Positions 2 to 9,118 of a stretch of DNA of 64,000 bases are shown here, in pieces; the stretch's first letter is position 1, and every line of letters begins with the position of its first letter. A program made the translations under genes and the position numbers. The notes beneath the pieces are model-generated. The model was not told the DNA's origin, did no database searches, and worked only from the letters and a program-made list of their open reading frames with translations. This DNA is from Burkholderiaceae bacterium. Lineage in GTDB: Bacteria; Pseudomonadota; Gammaproteobacteria; Burkholderiales; Burkholderiaceae. Where the stretch lies: the NCBI GenBank assembly GCA_947472645.1, contig CANJBQ010000004.1, forward strand, positions 1 through 64,000, in the 5' to 3' direction.

Positions 2-595
2 GAATCCCATCTCAACAATGTGCTGACAGCTGCGCAGGCTCTCAAGTCCACTCCAAAGGCCATTCAGTTAGGTATCGTTGCCCCCGATGGTAGAGACGGT
101 ATGTTGATCCATGCTCAGCAATTTGTGGATGCTCAAATCCCGTTCATTTTTGACCCTGGGCAAGGTTTGCCTATGTTTGATAGCAAAGATTTAAATACAT
201 TTATTGAACAAGCGACTTATATTGCTGTCAATGACTACGAAGGAGAAATGCTTTCCCATAAAACAGGTTTGCCACTCGCGCAAATAGCTCAACGTGTTAA
301 AGCTTTAATTGTTACAAAGGGTATCCAAGGATCTGAAATCTATACGGATGGTCAGGTGATTCATATTCCAGTAGTAAGCGTTGAGAAGCCTGTCGATCCT
401 ACTGGCTGTGGTGATGCTTTTCGTGCTGGTCTTCTTTATGGTATCGAAAATCAATTAGATATGGAAACTACGGGCAGACTTGGATCTTTGATGGGCGCTA
501 TTAAAATCGCATCGCAAGGCCCTCAAAACCATGCGCCAAGTTTTGCGATGATCCAAGATCTCTACCGCAAGGCCTTTAACGCCGATTTTATCTAA
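2..595 (+). CDS. PfkB-family carbohydrate kinase (adenosine/ribokinase-like), 5' truncated by window edge
   Basis: Frame is open from base 2 (ESHLNNVLTAAQAL...); C-terminal PfkB signature DPTGCGDAFRAGLLYG. Confidence 0.85.
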   Translation, partial: ESHLNNVLTAAQALKSTPKAIQLGIVAPDGRDGMLIHAQQFVDAQIPFIFDPGQGLPMFDSKDLNTFIEQATYIAVNDYEGEMLSHKTGLPLAQIAQRVKALIVTKGIQGSEIYTDGQVIHIPVVSVEKPVDPTGCGDAFRAGLLYGIENQLDMETTGRLGSLMGAIKIASQGPQNHAPSFAMIQDLYRKAFNADFI

Positions 596-6809: not shown

Positions 6810-7703
6810 TTAGATTTTTTGCAAAATTACTTCAAGTACAAAACGGCTTCCAACGTAAGCTAAAAGAAGAACCCCAAAAGAGCCCAATACCCACTTAGAA
6901 GCCTGCGCACCTCTTAGGCCAACTTTCCAATTCGCATATAGTAAACCACCAAACATTGACCAAGACATTAAAGAAAAGATGGTTTTATGGTCGAGGGTTA
7001 ATGGACGACCAAATAGTGCTTGACTAAAAAATGCTCCAGAAAATACCGCAACGGTAAGTAAGCAAAAGCCAATACCTATTACATTAAAAAGAACGCGCTC
7101 CATGGTGAGTAAGGGCGGTAATTGATCTAAAAGACTGGTCCGCTGCCCAAGCACTAACAGTTGCAACCAAGAAGCAGAGTGCGTGCCTTTATTCGATCTT
7201 AAGTTTTTATCCTGCCATGTCATCAAAATAGCTTGGAGGGCAGCTAAAAACATAATGCCGTAGGCCATATTGGCAGTAATAAAATGGAGTCGGAATCCCG
7301 GAGAATGAACCGCTTTAGTCGAAATGATGGCCCCTTCAAAAACATAGGGCAAGAAACTAAAAATCATCGCCATACCCAAAACTAATGGCAGCATGCCATA
7401 AAGCCTAAAGAACCAACCTTCCACCCAATAGAGCGCAATACCTACCCACGCCATCATCGATAAGGCCTGGGCAAATCCAAAAACGAGCCCTTGTGGTGTA
7501 AAAATATCCTGATAACAGGCATAACCATGTAAGACGAGTAAAATAAAAAGTAGAAGATGTATCCAAAATTTGTGTTTCCTGCTGGAAAGGAAAGATTCCG
7601 AAGATGCTTCAGTCACGGAACTAACCGCAGTCATCTGACGATTGTGAATCACAATCGTCAGAAGTGTCAGTGCGTATGCAATGCTTGGATATATTATTAA
7701 CAT
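6810..7703 (-). CDS. CcsA/YpjD-like cytochrome c assembly membrane protein
   Basis: Multi-TM protein with GFRLHFITANMAYGIMFLAALQA and DHKTIFSLMSWSMFGGLLYANW heme-handling-like regions; neighbour of ffh. Confidence 0.85.
   Translation of the reverse strand: MLIIYPSIAYALTLLTIVIHNRQMTAVSSVTEASSESFLSSRKHKFWIHLLLFILLVLHGYACYQDIFTPQGLVFGFAQALSMMAWVGIALYWVEGWFFRLYGMLPLVLGMAMIFSFLPYVFEGAIISTKAVHSPGFRLHFITANMAYGIMFLAALQAILMTWQDKNLRSNKGTHSASWLQLLVLGQRTSLLDQLPPLLTMERVLFNVIGIGFCLLTVAVFSGAFFSQALFGRPLTLDHKTIFSLMSWSMFGGLLYANWKVGLRGAQASKWVLGSFGVLLLAYVGSRFVLEVILQKI
7634..7662. repeat. 29-bp palindrome, 14-bp perfect arms with a 1-nt centre
   Basis: TCTGACGATTGTGA-A-TCACAATCGTCAGA. Confidence 0.95.
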
Positions 7704-7723
7704 ATGCTTAGTTTAATACCCTC

Positions 7724-9118
7724 ATGCTAGAAAATCTAACAGACCGTTTAAGTCGCGTGGTTAAAACCATTCGCGGACAAGCTCGCCTTACAGAAGAAAA
7801 TACTTCTGAGATGCTTCGTGAAATACGCTTAGCTCTTTTAGAAGCTGACGTCTCACTACCCGTCATTAAAGAATTATTAGCCAATATCAAACAAAAAGCC
7901 CTAGGTGAAGAAGTTATTTCTAGCTTAACACCAGGACAAGCTTTAGTGGGGATTGTCAAAGAAGAATTAGTCAACATCATGAACGGCGGTGAGATCCCGA
8001 ATGCCGGCTCTCCTGGAAAACTTAATTTAGCCACCCAACCTCCTGCTGTCATCTTAATGGCTGGATTACAAGGGGCGGGTAAAACCACCACTGTCGCAAA
8101 ACTCGCCAAATGGCTGATTCGCACCCAAAAGAAAAAAGTCCTAACGGTCTCTTGTGACGTCTATCGTCCTGCGGCAATTGAGCAGTTAAAAAAAGTAACT
8201 GCGCAAGCCGGAGCTGATTGGTTTGAAAGTAGTGCCGACCAAAAACCAAAAGATATCGCCAATGCGGCGATTGATTGGGCAAAACGTCATTACTATGATG
8301 TTCTTTTGGTCGATACCGCCGGTCGCCTAGGTATTGATGAAGCGATGATGGCAGAAATCTCAGCCCTTCACGAAGCTGTCAACCCCATTGAGACCCTATT
8401 TGTTGTGGATGCTATGTTAGGGCAAGATGCCGTCAATACTGCGAAGGCGTTTCATGCTGCACTTCCTTTAACTGGTGTGATCCTGACCAAGCTTGATGGT
8501 GACTCGAGAGGTGGCGCAGCACTTTCAGTTCGGCATATTACTGGTGTACCCCTCAAGTTTGTTGGCGTGTCTGAAAAAATTGATGGCCTAGACCCCTTTG
8601 ATGCGGAAAGAATGGCCGGCCGAATTCTCGGTATGGGGGATATTCTGGCGCTGGTTGAAGAAGCGCAAAAGAATGTTGATCACAAAGAAGCTGAAAAGCT
8701 GGTCGCAAAGATCAAAAAAGGTGGTTTTGATCTCTCTGACTTTAGAAGTCAAATCACCCAAATGCGTAACATGGGGGGGTTATCCAACTTGATGGATAAG
8801 TTGCCAGCGCAAATGGCTCAAGCAGCAGCAAAAACAGATATGAATGCTGCCGAAAAAAATATTCAGCGCATGCAAGGCATCATCGATAGTATGACGCCGC
8901 AAGAACGCTCTAAGCCAGACTTACTTAAGGCTAGTCGTAAACGTAGGATTGCGCAAGGTGCCGGTGTTCAAGTTCAAGAAGTCAATCGAATGCTAGGTCA
9001 ATTCGAACAAATGCAAACCATGATGAAACAATTTAGTGGCGGCAAAATGGCGCGCATGATGGGGCAAATGGCAGCCAAAGGAATGGGCAAGGCTTTAGGC
9101 AAAGGGCCCTTTAAATAA
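7724..9118 (+). CDS. ffh: Signal recognition particle protein Ffh
   Basis: GLQGAGKTTTVAKLA, DTAGRLGID, TKLDGDSRGGAALS; Met-rich M domain at C-terminus. Confidence 0.98.
   Translation: MLENLTDRLSRVVKTIRGQARLTEENTSEMLREIRLALLEADVSLPVIKELLANIKQKALGEEVISSLTPGQALVGIVKEELVNIMNGGEIPNAGSPGKLNLATQPPAVILMAGLQGAGKTTTVAKLAKWLIRTQKKKVLTVSCDVYRPAAIEQLKKVTAQAGADWFESSADQKPKDIANAAIDWAKRHYYDVLLVDTAGRLGIDEAMMAEISALHEAVNPIETLFVVDAMLGQDAVNTAKAFHAALPLTGVILTKLDGDSRGGAALSVRHITGVPLKFVGVSEKIDGLDPFDAERMAGRILGMGDILALVEEAQKNVDHKEAEKLVAKIKKGGFDLSDFRSQITQMRNMGGLSNLMDKLPAQMAQAAAKTDMNAAEKNIQRMQGIIDSMTPQERSKPDLLKASRKRRIAQGAGVQVQEVNRMLGQFEQMQTMMKQFSGGKMARMMGQMAAKGMGKALGKGPFK

Follow-up and report, generated by a model that had tools for sequence, protein, structure and literature searches.

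A palindrome in the early codons of ccsA, next to a fixed-length divergent gap with ffh, as a candidate mRNA hairpin

Hairpins in the early coding part of an mRNA can slow initiation or elongation, and some regulators have a single target. Bacterial divergent promoters that share a -10 element are known, with starts mostly 18 bp apart, spacings of 10 and 23 bp also being common (PMC12825309), and mRNAs without a leader have been described in Burkholderia (PMC4603805). Template switching by a polymerase can mimic selection for a fold (PMC8794818, PMC8604942). Here we describe a locus that touches on all of these subjects, located in a window of 64 kb (the whole stretch of Burkholderiaceae DNA that was analyzed), in which ccsA and ffh diverge from closely spaced start codons and a palindrome lies within the early ccsA codons (Table 1).

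Table 1. Features of the ccsA-ffh locus (window positions; ".", no strand assigned)
Feature	Position	Strand	Remarks
ccsA (ypjD-type cytochrome c assembly protein)	6810..7703	-	297 aa; Pfam PF01578 at 5e-25
Palindrome	7634..7662	-	ccsA nt +42 to +70 (codons 14-24); hairpin predicted with a 13-bp stem and a 3-nt loop
ccsA codons 1-11	7671..7703	-	unusually conserved at codon level in several clades
Gap between divergent start codons	7704..7723	.	20 bp; same length in 140/140 genus members
AGTTTAAT, proposed overlapping -10 elements	7710..7717	.	near-invariant AGTNTAAT in 140 species
Putative -10 of ccsA, TAAACT	7715-7710	-	ends 6 nt before ccsA ATG
Putative -10 of ffh, TTTAAT	7712-7717		ends 6 nt before ffh ATG
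ffh (signal recognition particle GTPase)	7724..9118	+	464 aa; Pfam PF00448, PF02978, PF02881; SRP54 domains

The ccsA-ffh gap and the first ccsA codons

Besides its fixed length and its near-invariant centre (Table 1), the gap carries A-G-T-N-T-A-A-T at positions -14 to -7 of ffh, at 97 to 100% across the 140 species, and a Shine-Dalgarno sequence was found on neither its ccsA nor its ffh side. At the genus level, the hexamers placed 6 nt before the start codons read TNTAAT rightwards (ffh) and TANACT leftwards (ccsA); overlapping candidate -10 hexamers are present in both directions, with imperfect matches. TAAACT-N6-ATG again precedes ccsA in L218, which belongs to another genus and has a gap of 54 bp, and the ccsA-ffh gaps of other genera of the family are much longer. 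The gap is probably a shared bidirectional -10 element from which two leaderless mRNAs would be made, the absence of a leader on both being predicted from the placement of the -10 elements. As ffh is an essential gene, the production of two leaderless mRNAs from a fixed 20-bp divergent promoter is a prediction that lends itself to testing.

The first 11 codons of ccsA are identical at 9/11 positions in the L002 clade, 8/11 in the L035 clade, and 11/11 in both the L008 and L011 clades, versus a gene-wide codon identity of 41%, 42%, 84%, and 35%, respectively. The upstream portion of the ffh promoter likely falls within these codons. The first-pass annotation had reasoned that regulatory DNA must lie inside coding sequence; this is probably right, but since the length and centre of the gap are fixed and codons 1 to 11 are conserved above the gene-wide level, the constrained part would be the gap together with these first codons, and not the palindrome.

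Sequence, fold, and rarity of the palindrome

The palindrome reads TCTGACGATTGTGA-A-TCACAATCGTCAGA, with perfect 14-bp arms around a single A, and spans -90 to -62 relative to the ffh ATG, its centre lying about 76 bp upstream of that start. Its sequence, coordinates, arms, 1-nt centre, and location within ccsA, as well as its distance of 62 to 90 bp from ffh and the 20 bp separating the two start codons, were all as initially described. Among all perfect inverted repeats of the 64-kb window, it is the longest. The RNA of either strand is predicted to fold into a stem of -19.3 kcal/mol (z of about -5.3 versus shuffles), with one correction to the initial description: the RNA has a 13-bp stem and a 3-nt loop in place of 14-bp arms and a 1-nt centre.

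Several simple identities were discarded. An intrinsic terminator is ruled out since no T-run follows the stem on either strand, in agreement with the initial description, and a search of Rfam 15 gave no match at the gathering score for the palindrome, only sub-threshold noise. A hairpin in an ffh 5' leader is unlikely because no promoter-like site was found upstream on the plus strand and ffh is predicted to be leaderless. In-frame insertion of a mobile palindrome is also ruled out, as the protein alignment contains no insertion relative to the relatives. Two further elements were seen nearby: a short stem with a T-rich tail and a terminator-like score, which lies in ccsA on the minus strand (7598-7612) and comes shortly after the palindrome when ccsA is read in its sense direction, and an inverted repeat inside ffh at 8709-8733 with 9-bp arms (AGATCAAAA/TTTTGATCT), of which the nearest relative retains 8/9 pairs.

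To place the arm length against a background, 400-kb genome samples were used, including an order-2 Markov model of 400 kb of the own genome from which 1.2 Mb was generated (loop ≤8). Arms in the latter reached 12 bp at most, and none of at least 13 bp occurred in 2.4 Mb of Markov sequence, in agreement with the initial judgment that the palindrome is improbable by chance. Across 347 kb of coding sequence, the own genome has about 4.3 perfect palindromes with arms of at least 10 bp per 100 kb versus 1.7 in Markov sequence, and a complete relative has 4.1 versus 1.6; the over-representation of coding palindromes here is 2.6 times. Several of the long "coding" palindromes in the samples sit at the starts or ends of open reading frames and are probably intergenic. 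Coding palindromes of such length are rare, not unique. Another one with 14-bp arms lies in a relative (G175, L079:6173-6202), within the codons for the N-terminal region of a spoT homologue; it decays among relatives without compensation, and an enoyl-CoA-hydratase-like palindrome also decays among relatives.

A search for further copies, which the first-pass annotation had proposed, returned none: the palindrome is single in the 3.1-Mb genome at up to 3 mismatches, and no match at this threshold was found across 185 other species of the genus.

The palindrome site in relatives and at control loci

As the palindrome search at up to 3 mismatches matched the own genome only, near relatives were found via the ccsA and ffh proteins; their records are lake metagenome assemblies. 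Judging by gene content and by how large the group is, the genus may be Polynucleobacter. In the nearest species (L003/L032; ccsA 89% identical in amino acids and 85% in nucleotides), the site reads TTGACGGTTGTGAATCACAACCGTCAA; of the 5 bases that differ from the window, 4 belong to two compensated pairs. In the next species (L004/L033; ccsA 84% in amino acids), it reads ATTACGGTTGTGAATCACAATCGTAAT, and two pairs are likewise compensated among 6 changes. With the pairs numbered outward from the centre, the A-T of the window at pair 7 corresponds to G-C in L032, costing I17V; pair 13 is C-G in the window, T-A in L032, and A-T in L033; and pair 11 is G-C in the window versus T-A in L033, with both L15I and Q23N, so that some of the compensations come with amino-acid replacements. 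Two compensated pairs are expected with a P of about 0.003 (L032) and 0.009 (L033) if changes are placed at random, or 0.006 and 0.017 if they are confined to variable sites, both comparisons using the window sequence and thus not being fully independent. In the ccsA sense, the L033 stem has one mismatch and is predicted at -9.2 kcal/mol. A shorter, interrupted stem around the same core is present in L035, L005, and L006, and the stem is largely lost in L007. Judged from these alignments, it is the fold rather than the sequence that persists in the two closest relatives, and the free divergence of the arms that the first-pass annotation had named as a refutation was not seen there.

These base changes bear on the operator that was initially suggested as the other function. 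In a broader form of this reading, ffh or ccsA would be controlled by a dimeric protein, a repressor or an activator, bound at a dyad whose centre lies about 76 bp before the ffh start codon. The dyad is perfect, it is placed where an upstream regulator of ffh could plausibly bind, and the inner TTGTGAATCACAA is identical in 5/7 relatives (L002, L032, L033, L035, and L006), but this core encodes the conserved residues V-I-H-N, so the protein is conserved along with it. Outer half-site bases are replaced by others that are yet complementary, and outer half-site identity is lost. Furthermore, the genome holds only one full site at up to 3 mismatches, which may argue against a repressor operator; the core at up to 2 mismatches occurs in 3 other places, near the chance number and with no perfect dyad among them; the dyad of L008 to L010 (see below) is unrelated; and L007 and the rest of the genus are without the palindrome. 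An operator is therefore quite improbable.

G-U and A-C mismatch counts are balanced, favoring neither strand, and strand assignment by G-U asymmetry was dropped on this account. Compensation without strand preference fits DNA as well as RNA, and the palindrome adjoins a divergent promoter pair, behind which negative supercoiling might extrude the 14-bp arms into a cruciform serving as a topological element. Arms of 14 bp are short for extrusion in cells, and we regard this explanation as very unlikely.

As controls, alignable coding palindromes with arms of at least 9 bp were taken from sampled parts of the own genome and that of the nearest relative (G150). Ten such palindromes accumulated 32 changes versus the nearest relative, with one compensated pair, and retained pairing no better than chance; only the ccsA palindrome, found from both sides, retains 13 pairs through two double changes. 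Similar-size coding palindromes do occur in the genus, but an origin by chance is extremely unlikely for this one: its arm length exceeds all in Markov sequence, and the compensated change in two relatives, set against the controls, largely refutes it. General homogenization of palindrome arms was not seen in the ten controls of this genome pair. Thus, a general repair process is disfavored, and something special to the ccsA site, either selection or a local mutation hotspot, is suggested.

The latter possibility is a strong, if rather unlikely, rival. A polymerase template switch would copy one arm onto the other and tidy a local quasi-palindrome, such that a perfect palindrome is made and repaired, free of function, within a weakly constrained stretch of ccsA. 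The mechanism is documented for hairpins (PMC8794818), in coding genes with multi-residue replacements (PMC8604942), and in E. coli (PMC7202029). It is consistent with the 2.6-fold excess of coding palindromes, with a fold that appears and disappears among clades, and with the L033 compensations, in which two closely spaced pairs were altered by transversion without passing through a G-U intermediate. However, other coding palindromes with 9- to 12-bp arms in the same genome pair are unrepaired, so a hotspot would be needed, and the same codons were struck in two separate clades. This locus specificity makes us lean towards selection rather than template switching.

The second clade comprises L008, L009, and L010, in which an unrelated 38-nt hairpin, TTTTATGATGTTCTTG-TCGGTT-CAAGAACATCATAAAA, with 16-bp arms and identical in the three species, covers the ccsA codons that the palindrome occupies in the window, at about -102 to -65 relative to ffh. 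At the positions where relatives differ, its two arms read MMFL and QEHH, which is the expected look of arm copying. Depending on the ancestral sequences, the patterns of both L033 and L008 to L010 would fit clustered changes made in one arm by a single event.

Across the genus, synonymous-codon shuffling indicated that the ccsA region around +43 to +90 (codons 14-28) folds more strongly than its shuffles in 140 members (mean z -1.2 to -1.4), compared with a mean of -0.2 for 320 other genes. The large-genome clade shows the strongest signal in these codons, with means down to about -2.4. The 5' end of ccsA has unusually little structure, and this holds for the ccsA strand alone. A tree-aware count of the best-paired stem in 107 small-genome species gave 40 breaks, 14 repairs, and 3 compensated events, the last showing no excess over chance or arbitrary stems. 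With more breaks than restorations and chance-level compensation on the tree, the average folding signal would largely reflect shared ancestry. A genus-wide stem at +63..66/+80..83, promising on simple pair counts, failed the tree-aware count. We claim no genus-wide conserved structure, and on these counts the conservation across the genus that might be looked for in a selected hairpin is not found. At ccsA +49..+74, loci of the L014 group (small-genome clade) contain an 8- to 10-bp stem, TATTTCTTG/CAAGAAAT, which in L026 reads TTCCTG/CAGGAA with a possible compensated pair.

A candidate ccsA mRNA hairpin and its relation to known systems

Our first choice, held tentatively at a probability of about 0.45, is that selection maintains an early-coding hairpin in the ccsA mRNA. 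The initial description left a dimeric-repressor operator and a stable mRNA hairpin side by side; compensated changes beyond chance in L032 and L033, together with decay of the controls, speak for the latter, and a single site whose bases change speaks against the former. A fold that is kept while its sequence is not, at one site in the genome, is easier to reconcile with an RNA hairpin than with an operator. The unrelated 16-bp-arm stem over the same codons in L008 to L010 counts in its favor, as do the amino-acid cost of some compensations, the folding of codons 14 to 28 beyond that of shuffled versions, and the unstructured 5' end of ccsA, whereas the loss in L007, the interrupted stems of L005, L006, and L035, the mismatch in L033, the balance of G-U and A-C mismatches, and the chance-level compensation in 107 genus members count against it.

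We infer that ccsA is transcribed leftwards, probably without a leader from its own ATG, in which case the palindrome would be transcribed as part of the ccsA mRNA and fold just past the codons of the first membrane helix, with RNA rather than DNA presumably being the folding molecule. Selection would retain the fold by favoring a matching change in one arm after a change in the other. The stem may act as a brake or stability element that delays the leading ribosomes, or else the polymerase, at codons 9 to 14, and such a brake would tune membrane-protein output from an mRNA lacking a leader where other control could sit. The joint reading, in which a leaderless mRNA from the 20-bp bidirectional promoter carries a selected, freely rewritten early-codon hairpin, and a stem, even an unrelated one in a sister group, is kept after the first membrane helix to tune the membrane protein beside ffh, is improbable as a whole.

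If the hairpin is selected, the locus provides a clean case of coding sequence bent to an mRNA fold at an amino-acid cost. If instead template switching repairs the arms, the locus shows that in bacteria, too, a natural mutation process can imitate selection, and it cautions against taking compensated changes alone as proof of function.

Like the bidirectional promoters with a shared -10 element described by Warman et al. (PMC12825309), the locus has divergent genes with putative -10 elements that share a pseudo-symmetric core; unlike them, its starts, predicted from sequence alone, are 21 nt apart and both mRNAs are predicted to be leaderless. It resembles hairpins produced by template switching and quasipalindrome arm homogenization (PMC8794818, PMC8604942, PMC7202029) in its perfect coding inverted repeat, its compensated multi-base changes, and the confinement of ccsA amino-acid replacements to the arms, but differs in that controls in the same genome pair are unrepaired, so that a genome-wide process is insufficient to account for it. 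With early-coding mRNA hairpins it shares a stem within the first 25 codons and an unstructured 5' end ahead of it, whereas the ccsA stem begins at +42, out of direct reach of a ribosome at the start codon, and is unusually perfect.
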